Shown here in pieces: positions 5,954 through 10,384 of a stretch of 10,384 bases of DNA; positions within the stretch are counted from its first letter, which is position 1, and each line of letters begins with the position of its first letter. The DNA is taken from the NCBI GenBank assembly GCA_934845495.1, contig CAKWRB010000032.1:1-10384 (forward strand), in the 5' to 3' direction. Source of the stretch: an uncultured bacterium (GTDB lineage: Bacteria > Bacillota > Clostridia > Oscillospirales > Ruminococcaceae). The translations under genes were made by a program, and so were the position numbers. Under the pieces are notes generated by a model. It was given only the letters and a program-made list of their open reading frames with translations. It searched no databases and had not been told where the DNA came from.

Positions 5954-6646
5954 TTATTCCTCTCTCGGGTCGATAATGCGGGCTGCCTGGTCAAACCGGC
6001 CATAGGTGGCAGTGTTTTTCCGCAGGGCTTCCTCAGCAGGAACACCGTGGCGGATATCCTCCATCATCTTGCCCAGCCGTACAAATTCGTAACCGATGGT
6101 TTCGTCATGGTCGTCCAGTGCCAGACGGGTGATGTACCCCTCGCTCATTTCCAGATAGCGTACCCCCTTGGCCGAAGTGCCAAAGATGGTACCGGTCTGG
6201 CTGCGCAGTCCCTTGCCCAGATCCTCCAGCGAGGCGCCGATGGGCAGGCCGCCTTCCGAGAAGGCAGTCTGGCTGCGGCCATAGACCAGCTGCAGGAAGA
6301 TCTCCCGCATGGCCACATTGATGGCGTCGCACACCAGGTCGGTGTTCAGCGCTTCCAGCAGGGTTTTGCCGGGCAGGATCTCGCCGGCCATGGCAGCGGA
6401 GTGGGTCATGCCGGAGCAGCCCAGGGTTTCCACCAGGGCCTCCTCAATAATACCGTCCTTCACATTGAGGGTGAGCTTGCAGGCGCCCTGCTGGGGAGCG
6501 CACCAGCCCACACCGTGGGAAAGCCCCGAGATGTCAGCGATCTGATAGGGGCGCACCCATCTGCCTTCTTCGGGAATGGGAGCCGGGCCGTGATTGGGTC
6601 CCTGGGCTACCACACACATATTCTCTACTTCCTTGGAATAAACCAC
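5954..6646 (-). CDS. IscU/NifU-like iron-sulfur cluster assembly scaffold protein
   Basis: This 230-residue protein contains an IscU/NifU N-terminal-like domain at about 45-130. Residues APQQGACKLTLNV (about 50-62) correspond to the first cysteine region of IscU (Cys56). LGCSGMTHSAAMAGEILPGKTLLEAL (75-100) matches the GCGSAIASS...GKSLDEA region with Cys77. The usual third ligand (HCS) is not obvious at its expected place, where the sequence reads YGRSQTAF. Cys49 or Cys106 might substitute. The N-terminal about 45 residues and C-terminal about 90 residues extend well beyond classic IscU (about 130), as in the longer scaffolds paired with GGGtGRT proteins. The start is GTG 6646, nine bases after AAGGAG. 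No IscS or SufS is nearby. It is the first gene of the scaffold-GGGtGRT operon. Confidence 0.85.
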   Translation of the reverse strand: MVYSKEVENMCVVAQGPNHGPAPIPEEGRWVRPYQIADISGLSHGVGWCAPQQGACKLTLNVKDGIIEEALVETLGCSGMTHSAAMAGEILPGKTLLEALNTDLVCDAINVAMREIFLQLVYGRSQTAFSEGGLPIGASLEDLGKGLRSQTGTIFGTSAKGVRYLEMSEGYITRLALDDHDETIGYEFVRLGKMMEDIRHGVPAEEALRKNTATYGRFDQAARIIDPREE

Positions 6647-6732
6647 CGTGGTAATCTCCTTTCGGGTTGGATTGGCGGGTTTGCAGCGGCTTATGGCGCA
6701 GAAATGCCAGCCGCCGGTTCAGTTCAGTTCCT

Positions 6733-6741
6733 ATTGTATCA
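6733..6741 (-). promoter_or_regulatory. Extended -10 promoter for the scaffold-GGGtGRT operon
   Basis: TGATACAAT on the minus strand matches the extended -10 (TGnTATAAT) with one mismatch. The -35 at 17 bases (TTCCGT) is poor, as is usual for extended -10 promoters. The leader would be about 80 bases and carries a GCGGC/GCCGC pairing. I recognise no riboswitch. Confidence 0.5.
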
Positions 6742-6765
6742 CAAAATATGCGCAGACGGAAATGG

Positions 6766-6821
6766 AAAAAGCCGCCCGGCCTTATAAAAAACCCCAGGGT
6801 GGCAGGGGGTATTCCGGGCGG
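6766..6821 (-). terminator. Nested terminator-like hairpins on the minus strand
   Basis: Read on the minus strand, CCGCCCGG (6821-6814) pairs with CCGGGCGG (6779-6772) and is followed by a five-T run (6770-6766). Inside it, ACCCC (6810-6806) pairs with GGGGT (6795-6791) and runs into six T (6791-6786). No minus-strand gene ends here, so these are orphan terminators upstream of the scaffold operon. They may block antisense transcription coming from the surface-protein genes. Confidence 0.5.
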
Positions 6822-6886
6822 AAAGGGCAGCCCGGGTTTTCAACGAGAATTTTCCACAGTGTGAAAAACTTTCCCACGCAAAAAAA

Positions 6887-6917
6887 CTGACAAAATTTGA
6901 ATTAACTGGGGTAGAAT
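6887..6917 (+). promoter_or_regulatory. Possible upstream promoter with 19-base spacer
   Basis: CTGACA (6887-6892) and TAGAAT (6912-6917) each match the sigma-A consensus at 5/6, but the spacer is 19 bases. GGGG abuts the -10. It could act weakly or need an activator. Confidence 0.35.
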
Positions 6918-6994
6918 CATGCAAAAAAGCCCCGATTTATCCCGAAAACCACGCATTTTGAAGTGGAAATTGCAGTTTGGAAAATTTAGGGGAG

Positions 6995-7029
6995 AAAATT
7001 ACAGAAAAATTACAAAATTAACTCAAAAA
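6995..7029 (+). promoter_or_regulatory. Helically phased A-tracts upstream of the poly-G promoter
   Basis: A-tracts begin at 6995, 7005, 7014 and 7025, about every 9-11 bases. AAAATTACA is repeated at 6995 and 7006. The block ends four bases before the -35 box, as expected for intrinsically bent DNA or an UP element. Confidence 0.5.
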
Positions 7030-7033
7030 GGGG

Positions 7034-7059
7034 TTGACAAGGTGCGGGGGGGGTATAAT
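7034..7059 (+). promoter_or_regulatory. Poly-G promoter, likely phase-variable, of the first surface-protein gene
   Basis: A perfect TTGACA (7034-7039) and perfect TATAAT (7054-7059) are separated by only 14 bases. The last eight of these (7046-7053) are all G. Sigma-A promoters need about 16-18 bases, so gain of two to four G would restore good spacing. This is the layout of slipped-strand phase-variable promoters such as Neisseria porA. Transcription would start near 7066 and give a leader of about 60 bases with a TTTCCC/GGGAAA hairpin. Confidence 0.75.
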
Positions 7060-7115
7060 TGCCTTACAACAGGGATTTCCCCGTGGGAAAAAACTGTGTT
7101 GAAATTTACAAAAAT

Positions 7116-7120
7116 GGAGG
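7116..7120 (+). promoter_or_regulatory. Ribosome binding site fixing the start at 7129
   Basis: GGAGG lies eight bases before ATG 7129. The in-frame ATG 6919 lies before the promoter, has no such site, and would place a promoter inside the gene. Confidence 0.85.
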
Positions 7121-7128
7121 AAAAAGCA

Positions 7129-8931
7129 ATGAACACTAAGAAGATTACTGCTCTGGCTCTGGCTGCTCTGATGGCTGCTGGTTCTACAAGCACTGCTTTC
7201 GCAGTATCGGTTGATACCAACAAGAACCAGGCACTTGTTTTCGATGGCACAAATGCCTACGAAGAGGATGACAACGGCGTTCTCGTTGAGGATAAGGATG
7301 GCGTAGCCCCTGGCGACAGCATCTACTTCCTGCTGAAGGATGGTGCCTTTGACGATATCGAGGACAAGGACCGCGACCGCATCAAGGTATACGCTGACTG
7401 GAAGATGGGCAAGGACTACATCAAGGATATCGAGATCGTTTACAAAAAGGGCGAGGCTGTTACCTCTGGCTCTGCTGTAGCTGATTCCAAGTACTACACC
7501 GTTAAGATCGGCGGCAAGGAACTGAAGGTCGTTGTTGGTAAGGGCGAGACCCGTAAAGAAGCTATCGAGAGAGTAATCTATGGTGCGATGTCTGATCCCA
7601 ACTTCCTGAAGGACGAGAGAGCTAAGGAGTACGAAAGCATCCAGGACGTAACAACTGGTGCTGTAATTGAGGGCAAGTATGTTACTGACACTTACACCGA
7701 GAAGGACAGTGGTCTGGTTGCTGTTGACGATAAGTACTACGCTTCTGCTTCTGCTGCCAAGGATGCCCTCTTTGCATCTGCTGCGAGTCTTCCCAAGCTG
7801 TGGGTTCTGACTGCTGATGACAACGAAAATATTCAGCATGCCAGCAAGGCTAGCACAACTCCTGGTGTTGAGTATACAGATAAGGATGGAGAAAAGTCCA
7901 ACTACACCTACAGAGATGTTAAGGGCGATGACATTCTTGTAATCCCCACTAGCAAGGCAAGTCAGGTTGCAGATGCTGATCTGCTTAAGCATAATCTGGC
8001 TACAGCAGTAACTTCTGATGCTATCCTGGTTCATAAGGATGACAGCACCTTCGCTTGGAAGGATGATAAGAACTATGTTGTAAATGCACAGGCTCCTGCA
8101 TACGAGTACGCTTCTACCAAGTATGTAACCAAGGCTGAGGCTAAGGATGCTGCTGACCATGCTATCGCCGCTGCTGAGGCTACAGACTTGGATGGCAAGA
8201 CACGCGTAGTTGTTGATTCTGACATCGACTCCGTTGCTAAGCCTGACTTCACCTACTGGGTAAAGATCGACACCAAGGAAAGCTTCACCACCAAGGAGCA
8301 GGACATCGCCGGTACTCTGTACCTGGGCACCAGCAAGAACAGCGCTGAGGACAAGGGCTCTAAGCTCAAAATCGGTCTGCCTCTGTCCAACCGTATCGAC
8401 GACAATAACGGTTCCTATGTCATCAAGGATGGCGATACCATTTATCCCGACGCTAACGGCGCTGTAAAGTTCGAGGACGATGCTGAGGAAGTTACCATCT
8501 ACTTCGGCAGCAACGAGGATGCTTGGTTCACCTTCAACGCTGCTGGTCAGAGCGCTCTGAACCTGGCTTACAACACCAAGTTCAACAAGGAGATCGCTGA
8601 CCTGTTCCCGAAGGCCAACATCGACTTCATCTCCTGGATCGCTACTCCCGCTGCTAACCGCACCGGCGACCTGTACATCACTGCTAAGGAAGATACCTTC
8701 CTGTATCAGGTAACTGAGGATGGCAAGGGCATCAAGGAAGTTAAGGGCGCTGACTACGATGAGAACGAGGGCGCATGGCACATCCGCACCAGAAAGCTGG
8801 GCTCCTATGTAATTTCTGACATGGAGCTGGATACCACCGCTAAGGTAGAGGACAAGGACGAGGCTTCCAGCAACAGCTCCACCTCTTCCAAGCCCAACGG
8901 CGACAAGCACAACCCGGATACTGGTAGATAA
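7129..8931 (+). CDS. Secreted, cysteine-free surface protein ending in NPDTGR (paralogue 1)
   Basis: This 600-residue protein of unknown function has a clear Sec signal peptide (charged MNTKK, hydrophobic core to about 20, cleavage after AFA at 25). The mature part is acidic and Lys/Asp/Ala-rich, with no cysteine. N-terminal blocks (PGDSIYFLL about 61-69; ADWKMGK about 89-95) and the region from 392 (DIAGTLYLG) to about 565 align with the downstream gene. Between them lies an insert of roughly 250 residues, absent from the paralogue, that may contain a repeat (202-230 resembles 331-360). The shared C-terminal domain (about 447-565) ends in RTRKLGSYVISDMEL. A Ser/Lys/Asp linker follows, then NPDTGR and stop. 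No anchor helix or SLH domain is seen. Codon use (GCT, GTT, AAG) suggests very high expression. An S-layer-like or coat component is inference. Confidence 0.85.
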   Translation: MNTKKITALALAALMAAGSTSTAFAVSVDTNKNQALVFDGTNAYEEDDNGVLVEDKDGVAPGDSIYFLLKDGAFDDIEDKDRDRIKVYADWKMGKDYIKDIEIVYKKGEAVTSGSAVADSKYYTVKIGGKELKVVVGKGETRKEAIERVIYGAMSDPNFLKDERAKEYESIQDVTTGAVIEGKYVTDTYTEKDSGLVAVDDKYYASASAAKDALFASAASLPKLWVLTADDNENIQHASKASTTPGVEYTDKDGEKSNYTYRDVKGDDILVIPTSKASQVADADLLKHNLATAVTSDAILVHKDDSTFAWKDDKNYVVNAQAPAYEYASTKYVTKAEAKDAADHAIAAAEATDLDGKTRVVVDSDIDSVAKPDFTYWVKIDTKESFTTKEQDIAGTLYLGTSKNSAEDKGSKLKIGLPLSNRIDDNNGSYVIKDGDTIYPDANGAVKFEDDAEEVTIYFGSNEDAWFTFNAAGQSALNLAYNTKFNKEIADLFPKANIDFISWIATPAANRTGDLYITAKEDTFLYQVTEDGKGIKEVKGADYDENEGAWHIRTRKLGSYVISDMELDTTAKVEDKDEASSNSSTSSKPNGDKHNPDTGR

Positions 8932-8947
8932 GTCATAAATGACTTAT
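8928..8947 (+). repeat. Perfect palindrome over the stop codon of paralogue 1
   Basis: ATAAGTCAT (8928-8936) and ATGACTTAT (8939-8947) form a perfect 9-bp inverted repeat with two bases between. The stop TAA (8929-8931) lies in the left arm. There is no T run after it. Confidence 0.6.
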
Positions 8948-8952
8948 CCACA

Positions 8953-8981
8953 CAGCGAATTTGGCTTCGCCAAATGTCGCC
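8953..8981 (+). repeat. 29-base stem-loop element, copy A
   Basis: The arms GCGAATTTGGC and GCCAAATGTCGC pair around a TTC loop with one bulged G. Copy C (10255-10283) matches it at 27 of 29 positions. It lies 21 bases after the stop of paralogue 1. Confidence 0.65.
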
Positions 8982-8995
8982 GAGCGATCTTTTGG

Positions 8996-9019
8996 CGAGT
9001 TTTGAGTAATCAAAACTCG
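8996..9019 (+). repeat. 10-bp perfect hairpin with GTAA loop
   Basis: CGAGTTTTGA (8996-9005) and TCAAAACTCG (9010-9019) pair exactly around GTAA, a GNRA-type tetraloop. It is not followed by T residues, so an RNA-stability or structural role is likelier than termination. Confidence 0.55.
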
Positions 9020-9037
9020 TAGGAAGCAAACTCTAAT

Positions 9038-9063
9038 GCGATTTTGCTTCGCCAAATGTCGCC
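9038..9063 (+). repeat. Stem-loop element, diverged copy B
   Basis: GCGATTTTGCTTCGCCAAATGTCGCC keeps the outer GCGA/TCGC arms and the CTTCGCCAAATGTCGCC half of copy A, but has lost one G in the left arm. Its left part can also pair with GAAGCAAA (9023-9030), an alternative fold. Confidence 0.5.
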
Positions 9064-9077
9064 CAACCCACCGGGGT

Positions 9078-9105
9078 TTGAGCAATCGGACCCTGGGGGC
9101 ATAAA
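9078..9105 (+). promoter_or_regulatory. Weak candidate promoter for paralogue 2
   Basis: TTGAGC (9078-9083) and CATAAA (9100-9105) each match at 4/6, with a 16-base spacer containing five G near the -10. If used, its transcript meets the hairpin at 9117-9143 within about 10 bases. Confidence 0.3.
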
Positions 9106-9116
9106 CAGTTGAAATG

Positions 9117-9143
9117 GGCGGTTGGATGTCCAGCCGCCTTTTT
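9117..9143 (+). terminator. Intrinsic terminator between the paralogues, upstream of the second ribosome site
   Basis: A 9-bp stem (9117-9125 with 9130-9138, one G-T pair) around ATGT is followed by five T (9139-9143). It ends only 22 bases before the AGGAGG of the next gene, so it acts either as the end of the first transcript or as an attenuator of the second. Confidence 0.8.
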
Positions 9144-9180
9144 CAAAATAAAAAACCTATATTGTAGGAGGAAAACAAAC

Positions 9181-10239
9181 ATGAAGAAGATTTTTGCTCT
9201 TGCTCTGGCTGCTCTGATGACTGCCAGCATGGCAACCGTTGCCTTCGCTACTGCTGATGGCAAGTACGATGGCGTAAAGGTAGGCCCCAAGCAGACTTCT
9301 GGTACTCTGGACAAGGTTTATGTTCTGAGCGATTCCAGAGCTGAGAATGTAGTAGACGGCAATTCTGAGAAGAATGCTGTTGACGACAAGTTCGAGGGTG
9401 GAGACCGTCTGGCTATCCCGCTGATTGTTTGGGACGATGATAATGACAACGGTACCTTTGATGCTAACGAAGCTGTTTGGTACACCAAGGATGTAGACTA
9501 TAAGAAGCCCGTTATCAAGGCTGACTGGAAGGTTGGCGAGGCTGATGTAGATTACGAGCTGGTTAAGTACGATCAGTCTCTCCTGGGTCTCTCCAAGGAC
9601 GAGTACATCTGGTCTGCTGTTATCACCCTGCCTGAGAACAAGGGCAACAAGGCTGTAGACCTGGCTGGTAAGATCCAGGCAGGCGCCAACTCCACAAGTG
9701 CTAAGAAGGACAAGGGTATCGACATTGAACTGACCTACCTGCCCGATGAAACCACTAAGCCCCTGTTTGATGGCGGTGAGCTGACCTCTGGCAAGACCGG
9801 TATCGTTGAATTTGACAAGGATGCTGGCGAGATCGACATCGACTTCGAGGATGTAGCTACCTTCACCGTTGATGTATCCAGCCAGGGCAAGCTGAACATG
9901 GAGTGGAACACCACTTTCGATAAGGAGTTCGGCAAGAAGTACGACTACGCCAACCTGGAGTTCATCACCTTCGAGGGCAAGCCTTCCTTCAACAAGACCG
10001 GTACTCTGTACATCTACGCTGAGGACAAGAACACCTTCGTTTACGAGGCTACCGAGGACGGCGCCAAGGCTGTTGATGCCAAGTGGAACGAGGACTACGA
10101 GGCTTGGGAGATCAAGACCCGCAAGCTGACCAGCTATGTTCTGTCCGATGTAGAGCTGGACAAGCAGACCGTTACCGAGGACAAGAACGAGTCCTCCAAG
10201 CCCGAGAGCGGCAAGGACAACCCTGATACCGGTAGATAA
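9181..10239 (+). CDS. Secreted surface protein with EF-hand-like loop, ending in NPDTGR (paralogue 2)
   Basis: This 352-residue protein is a paralogue of the upstream gene without its central insert. It has a Sec signal peptide (MKKIFALALAALMT, cleavage after AFA at 23), no cysteine, and an acidic composition. Residues 86-97 (DDNDNGTFDANE) fit a 12-residue EF-hand calcium loop: Asp at 1, Asn at 3 and 5, Gly at 6, hydrophobic at 8, Asp at 9, Glu at 12. Shared blocks are ADWKVGE, DLAGKIQAG, and the C-terminal domain (about 209-325) ending in KTRKLTSYVLSDVEL. A Glu/Ser/Lys linker precedes NPDTGR and stop. ATG 9181 is preceded by AGGAGG at nine bases. An earlier in-frame ATG (9109) lies before the terminator hairpin and would spoil the signal peptide. 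The role is unknown; a calcium-stabilised surface layer or coat protein is inference. Confidence 0.87.
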   Translation: MKKIFALALAALMTASMATVAFATADGKYDGVKVGPKQTSGTLDKVYVLSDSRAENVVDGNSEKNAVDDKFEGGDRLAIPLIVWDDDNDNGTFDANEAVWYTKDVDYKKPVIKADWKVGEADVDYELVKYDQSLLGLSKDEYIWSAVITLPENKGNKAVDLAGKIQAGANSTSAKKDKGIDIELTYLPDETTKPLFDGGELTSGKTGIVEFDKDAGEIDIDFEDVATFTVDVSSQGKLNMEWNTTFDKEFGKKYDYANLEFITFEGKPSFNKTGTLYIYAEDKNTFVYEATEDGAKAVDAKWNEDYEAWEIKTRKLTSYVLSDVELDKQTVTEDKNESSKPESGKDNPDTGR

Positions 10240-10246
10240 ATCTACC
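10231..10246 (+). repeat. Perfect palindrome over the stop codon of paralogue 2
   Basis: GGTAGAT (10231-10237) and ATCTACC (10240-10246) form an exact 7-bp inverted repeat. The stop TAA (10237-10239) sits at its centre, paralleling the palindrome at the stop of paralogue 1. Confidence 0.6.
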
Positions 10247-10254
10247 TTTAGTCC

Positions 10255-10283
10255 CAGCGAATTTGGCTTCGCCGAATATCGCC
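10255..10283 (+). repeat. 29-base stem-loop element, copy C
   Basis: Two differences from copy A: one turns a T-A pair into T-G, the other changes the bulged G to A. Both keep the hairpin. It lies 15 bases after the stop of paralogue 2. A further imperfect hairpin follows at 10291-10314. Confidence 0.65.
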
Positions 10284-10318
10284 GGGTTTAGGGTGAATCC
10301 GAATGGGATTACCCCATA

Positions 10319-10349
10319 AAAACAAGGGAGCATCTGCTCCCCTGTTTTT
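10319..10349 (+). terminator. First terminator after paralogue 2
   Basis: GGGAGC (10326-10331) and GCTCCC (10336-10341) pair around ATCT. The stem extends past one A-C mismatch by AAAACA/TGTTTT, ending in five T (10345-10349). Confidence 0.88.
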
Positions 10350-10380
10350 GAAAGCGGAGAGAAGTTTCCTCTCCGTTTTC
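10350..10380 (+). terminator. Second, tandem terminator
   Basis: A 12-bp stem (10350-10361 with 10369-10380, one G-T pair) with a seven-base loop and TTTT in the descending arm directly follows the first terminator. The window ends just after it. Confidence 0.7.
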
Positions 10381-10384
10381 AAAA

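Follow-up and report, generated by a model that had tools for sequence, protein, structure and literature searches.

The window, that is, the whole stretch of 10,384 nucleotides analysed here, carries two genes for secreted-type proteins downstream of a consensus promoter. Its features are as follows.

6998..7014, forward strand: ATTACA-N5-ATTACA box, an 11-bp direct repeat that starts 36 bases 5′ of the −35 hexamer
7034..7039, forward strand: −35 hexamer TTGACA, a perfect consensus match
7046..7053, forward strand: G8 tract in the spacer, abutting the −10 hexamer; the proposed slippage site
7054..7059, forward strand: −10 hexamer TATAAT, a perfect consensus match
7066..7101, forward strand: predicted transcription start, placed by inference at A7066, and 5′ leader hairpin (7067-7101)
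7129..8931, forward strand: protein of 600 aa with conserved ends, the C-terminus NPDTGR and an N-terminus that looks like a signal peptide by eye
7516..8238, forward strand: hypervariable middle of this protein (residues ~130-370), which differs between relatives with near-identical ends
9181..10239, forward strand: second secreted-type protein, 352 aa, also ending in NPDTGR

The gene for the 600-aa protein begins 70 bases past the −10 hexamer and is preceded by a Shine-Dalgarno sequence. A promoter scan of the interval between the two genes found none, and the 352-aa protein is probably encoded in the same transcript. The same tandem of a large and a small gene occurs twice at locus L081 of the cultured strain An564 (genome G001), which is labelled Hydrogenoanaerobacterium saccharovorans and served as the centre genome of the order and class comparisons. 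Neither window protein had a Pfam match or anything above the NCBIfam cut-offs, and a comparison of the profile of the 600-aa protein with solved structures gave nothing convincing, the best match being an antibody chain at E 0.25. Here and below, "secreted" denotes a signal-peptide-like N-terminus judged by eye, not by a predictor. The terminal [NI]P[DNS]TGR-stop motifs (8911-8931 and 10219-10239 in the window) resemble a sortase motif, with no membrane segment after them. A 30-base repeat (GCGAATTTGGCTTCGCCAAATGTCGCC-like) lies 3′ of both genes, at 8953-8982, 9035-9064 and 10255-10284. An Rfam search of the window gave nothing at the gathering thresholds, and no tRNA genes were found in it.

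The two hexamers are separated by 14 bases, AGGTGC followed by G8. The initial annotation had described exactly this site, with a perfect TTGACA and a perfect TATAAT 14 bases apart and eight G directly before the −10, and its coordinates and sequence are all exact. When both strands of the window were scanned for perfect TTGACA-N12-20-TATAAT, the 7034-7059 site was the only pair, and a perfect hexamer pair appeared in none of 200 dinucleotide-preserving shuffles of the window. Runs of G7 or more number two in the window, as against a mean of 3.25 overlapping matches expected from such shuffles. With G7+ runs turning up in shuffled sequence as well, the run by itself is no proof, and it is its position that exceeds chance. 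The G count of a homopolymer in a consensus sequence may be wrong by one.

The same promoter lies at homologous loci in strain An564 and in Candidatus Avimicrobium faecavium; the other three of the five named-genome loci have no such promoter. A pattern search returned several poly-G promoters per genome, with differing numbers of G, and found them also in a third genome placed in the same genus; in G003 (Merdimmobilis), no poly-G promoter was among the matches listed. By adding promoters reached via G runs or genes, and by admitting the variants TTGACG, TATACT and TATAAA, we assembled a set of 28 poly-G promoters: the one in the window and nine each in G001, G002 and G004. The perfect hexamers of 20 of the 28 were imposed by the search pattern. 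The promoters differ mainly in their G count, which ranges from G5 to G11. The part of the spacer that precedes the G run is 6-7 bases long in 25 of the 28, and across the set its length shows no compensation for the number of G (r = +0.17). The resulting spacers measure 11 (two promoters), 13 (one), 14 (three), 15 (four), 16 (ten), 17 (five), 18 (two) and 19 bases (one). Those of 16-18 bases (17/28) would also be expected from selection for a working promoter, which counts against the reading of the tract as a switch.

To this set we can compare all runs of G9 or more in the three related genomes, collected with no promoter condition. There are 24 in total (6, 7 and 11 by genome), and in 21 of them the last G abuts a −10 hexamer that has TTGAC[AG] upstream of it. 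Because the list was drawn up without a promoter condition, this result is independent of the hexamers imposed by the search pattern, and it indicates that long G runs are kept almost only inside promoters in the three genomes. The three exceptional runs all belong to G004 and all lie inside reading frames; one of them encodes what we take to be the glycine-rich motif of an IspE-like kinase. The other two, the G9 runs L168:276 and L169:2972, stand in the context TATACG9TATA and are possible coding phase switches. One of these is found where the frame of a possible regulator of the GntR type ends, ahead of a presumed ABC transporter gene.

Behind 24 of the 28 poly-G promoters lies a gene for a secreted-type protein (window 1, G001 8, G002 8 and G004 7). 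The other four are followed by a permease (two promoters), by a possible regulator of 221 aa, and by a contig end. The permease promoters (L085:2430 in G001 and L086:2221 in G002) point to a possible non-surface target, which we assume to be an APC-type, amino-acid permease-like protein. The C-terminus [NI]P[DNS]TGR is present in 20 of the 21 complete secreted-type proteins. Taken from the side of the proteins, of 32 complete [NI]P[DNS]TGR genes, 18 are closely preceded by a poly-G promoter (17 by the script pattern, plus L132 with TTGACG), three by an ordinary consensus promoter, and 11 by none that was recognised, some of these being second tandem genes. Genes for sortases were detected in all three related genomes (6, 3 and 4 matches over the cut-off).

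A protein search returned 212 relatives of the window protein, of which the best 120 were listed. Among these 120, the first 70 relatives of 480-680 aa gave 229 pairs whose last 200 residues are at least 93% alike; the middle falls below 50% identity in 161 of the 229. The variable middle of the family looks like the outcome of domain replacement by recombination, as judged from such alignments, with divergence after duplication as an alternative.

Upstream of the −35, an ATTACR-N5-ATTACR box with at most one mismatch lies 35-36 bases before the hexamer in 17 of the 27 assessable poly-G promoters; the other ten have no box. Among 27 ordinary control promoters, from loci of G001, G002 and G003, none came within two mismatches of the box, the best having three. 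The box is a candidate activator site or, equally possibly, an UP-like element. OmpR/PhoP-type regulators often bind 11-bp direct repeats. By eye, ATTAC direct repeats are also seen upstream of some paralogues whose genes lack a poly-G promoter (L133, L146), and the box may mark a wider regulon. Downstream of the promoter, the window leader folds with −13.6 kcal/mol (z −2.9 against mononucleotide shuffles). Hairpins with z of −2.0 or lower are predicted in 21 of the 26 folded leaders, the window's among them (28 leaders, two unfoldable); their sequences differ, and the leader alignment is too divergent for covariation analysis.

The shared box allows a reading in which tract length is a dial that works with a regulator at ATTACR-N5-ATTACR, a spacer of 14 being active when the activator is bound, with regulation coming first and variation second. 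In favour of this reading, the box stands at a fixed distance (−35/−36) in those 17 of 27 promoters, and in Treponema pallidum a regulator acts together with poly-G length at tprE, G and J, according to the accessible text of PMC7864442. The promoters of the tandem type, the window's and the two at L081, also fit: all three have a spacer of 14, reached through different G counts (G8 once, G7 plus an extra C twice). The window and L081 promoters are 80% alike, and with G8 in the one and G7 and the extra C in the other, it looks as if the spacer of 14 had been kept. The two promoters within L081 are also 80% alike and have equal tracts, which counts against the switch. However, the box is absent from ten of the 27 assessable promoters and is therefore not needed for the tract, and spacers of 11 and 19 also occur in the family. 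We consider the dial with a regulator unlikely.

The spacers of the poly-G promoters differ from ordinary ones. A scan of G001 and G002 listed 118 perfect TTGACA-N10-20-TATAAT sites, of which 103 lack a G5+ run at the −10 and 15 have one. A spacer of exactly 17 is found in 67 of the 103 ordinary promoters versus two of the 15 poly-G promoters (Fisher p 3.4e-4), and the mean distance from 17 is 0.59 versus 1.87 bases (permutation p 4.5e-4; Levene p 0.03). Four of the ordinary sites have a spacer of 14 or less and six a spacer of 20; short spacers are thus not exclusive to the poly-G promoters. All three paralogues of the [NI]P[DNS]TGR family with consensus promoters that lack poly-G have a spacer of 17.

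Tract lengths also differ between closely similar promoters. The flanks of the L088/L090 pair in G002 are identical at 156 of 173 positions (90%), and the tracts are G8 and G10, with spacers of 15 and 17. In the L082/L084 pair of G001, 69 of 72 upstream and 71 of 101 downstream positions are identical, with G9 versus G11 and spacers of 15 versus 18. The L148/L170 pair is 99% alike with equal tracts, which counts against the switch. Between genomes, reciprocal-best protein pairs (n=14; distant, at 35-66% identity) differ in spacer in nine cases and agree in five, the latter counting against the switch, and the promoter of the related permease gene has a spacer of 11 in G001 and of 16 in G002. 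Lengths on either side of the optimum, from 11 to 19, thus occur across paralogues and species, as compared in one genome per species.

Outside the genus the arrangement is rare. Within the order, the pattern GGGGGGGGTATAAT was found in 9 genomes out of 295, at 16 sites (reversed control, 0), and within the class in 6 out of 291, at 13 sites (reversed control, 2); G001 contributes six sites to each count. Outside the genus there are 17 GGGGGGGGTATAAT sites, and a perfect TTGACA precedes 14 of them at a spacer of 14-20. Genes could be recognised behind 12 of them; nine of the 12 products are signal-peptide-like by a crude rule, and several have a lipobox by eye. These other genera have different spacer prefixes and the same design, in which the G run abuts the −10. 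With a looser pattern, 116 of 396 genomes from the family gave matches; most of those listed from outside the genus were promoters of the ordinary kind, in which the G5 is interrupted and the spacer is 16-18 bases long. In G543, which belongs to another genus, two promoters of the same type (L174:2020 and L174:5716) have spacers of 15 and 17, and they precede secreted-type proteins that end in a sortase-like motif, a membrane segment and a KKR tail. Viral contigs gave two matches in a scan for the promoter pattern, both rejected as ordinary-looking, with interrupted GGGG in the spacers, and a protein profile search of the viral contigs found no relative.

These comparisons bear on the idea that the G-rich spacer is a fixed flavour of promoter, inherited by duplication and subject to slow length drift, with no switching in the population. 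Promoters do duplicate together with their leaders (L148/L170, L088/L090), and the 17 spacers of 16-18 bases lie inside the working range. Against it stand the difference in length between promoters of one genome whose flanks are 90% alike, the clustering at 17 of the ordinary promoters of the same genomes, the near confinement of long G runs to poly-G promoters and the recurrence of the G-abutting design with different prefixes in other genera. A fixed flavour is, on this evidence, quite improbable. The probability that the site is a chance resemblance or a sequencing artefact with no promoter function is practically nil: although shuffling also produces G runs and one consensus G count may be off by one, the perfect hexamer pair arose in no shuffle and the arrangement recurs 27 times in the three related genomes.

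Two switches of other types were considered and rejected. For an invertible promoter of the Clostridioides difficile type, no inverted repeat of at least 16 nt flanks the promoter within 6640-10384, where the only inverted pair of that length lies inside the second gene. For the T. pallidum tprL type, in which the poly-G lies over the −10, an intact TATAAT follows the tract.

The window site is very probably one of a set of phase-variable promoters at many loci that would act by spacer slippage of the porA type and would control a vlp-like repertoire. Slipped-strand mispairing at replication would lengthen or shorten the G tract that lies between the −35 and −10 hexamers, and with it the spacer, and so alter the grip of the vegetative RNA polymerase on both. 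A spacer of about 16-18 bases would permit transcription, and a clearly shorter or longer one would permit little. With each locus switching independently and at random, a population would contain many combinations of secreted proteins, the middles of which differ between relatives as well. Several paralogous secreted proteins each have a tract of their own, as in vlp, and by our reading these tracts would switch. The initial annotation had proposed a porA-like spacer switch at the single window promoter. The comparison of sequences supports this reading strongly and shows it to be too modest: instead of one promoter, each related genome has about nine of them, which would form a multi-locus system. 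We infer the slippage rate, the switching, the on/off assignment, the surface location and the benefit, which may consist in escape from phage, antibody or predators.

By the porA rule, the window copy with its spacer of 14 is predicted to be low or off, and both NPDTGR proteins would then be low or off as well. A tract of G10-G12 would bring the spacer to 16-18, an expectation of the initial annotation whose arithmetic is right for the window copy. The spacer of 14 in all three tandem-type promoters, two of them in one genome, casts doubt on the "off" call: this length could be tolerated in the tandem type, or its gene could usually be off.

In a wider reading, to which we lean, a genus of gut Clostridia would practise combinatorial coat switching: each genome would have about nine poly-G spacer switches working independently, most of them with a common regulator box, and these would act on secreted targets with a cassette-exchanged middle and a new C-terminal motif, NP[DNS]TGR. 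If true, a commensal would have its own version of the antigen systems seen in Neisseria and Mycoplasma, perhaps directed against phages or IgA. Phase variation in Clostridia is known mainly as DNA inversion. Promoter-spacer switches across the genome, if true, would add a second mechanism that needs no recombinase, in one of the major classes of gut bacteria, and one missed by inversion-based searches of metagenomes. Under the spacer-switch reading, the G count of each locus would suffice to predict the secreted proteins that a cell produces. A literature search, with subscription papers mostly outside its reach, gave no homopolymer promoter switch in Clostridia among the matches listed.

Among known systems, porA of Neisseria meningitidis has a poly-G between the −35 and −10 whose length sets the spacing, with an optimum of 17 (van der Ende 1995, cited in PMC7864442), and shortening the spacer below this optimum abolishes transcription (accessible text of PMC7864442). 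FetA with a 17-base spacer is consistently highly expressed (PMC4577077, in the part accessible). The window and the 28-promoter set likewise have a homopolymer, poly-G, inside the spacer between the −35 and −10. They differ from porA, a single gene in Neisseria, in that about nine loci per related genome are involved, in Clostridia, mostly with perfect hexamers and many with a common box and a leader hairpin, and in that the targets are non-porins. In Mycoplasma hyorhinis, the vlp multigene family of surface proteins has a homopolymer in every promoter and is switched on and off by indels, and in Mycoplasma mycoides, a change in the length of a promoter-spacer repeat switches the surface protein Vmm (both from the accessible text of PMC10502178). 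The vlp tracts are poly-A, before lipoprotein genes of mollicutes, whereas ours are poly-G at dispersed loci, before NPDTGR-ending proteins; vmm differs in its dinucleotide repeat and in being a single gene. In T. pallidum, poly-G of variable length upstream of the antigen-family members tprE, G, J and L affects transcription, but for tprL the tract covers the −10 according to the authors, who exclude a spacer effect of the porA kind (accessible text of PMC7864442). In the gut commensal Bifidobacterium breve, replication slippage at G tracts controls the surface structures of its pilus, although these tracts, as the accessible text of PMC9187656 describes them, are intragenic and do not set promoter spacing. 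For C. difficile, a recent review names phase variation by invertible promoters (PMC11868660, in the part accessible), a DNA inversion unlike the present locus with its lack of a flanking inverted repeat of at least 16 nt. The mechanism is thus known from porA and the multigene architecture from vlp, and what the genomes compared here suggest is the combination of the two, at many loci, in Clostridia.
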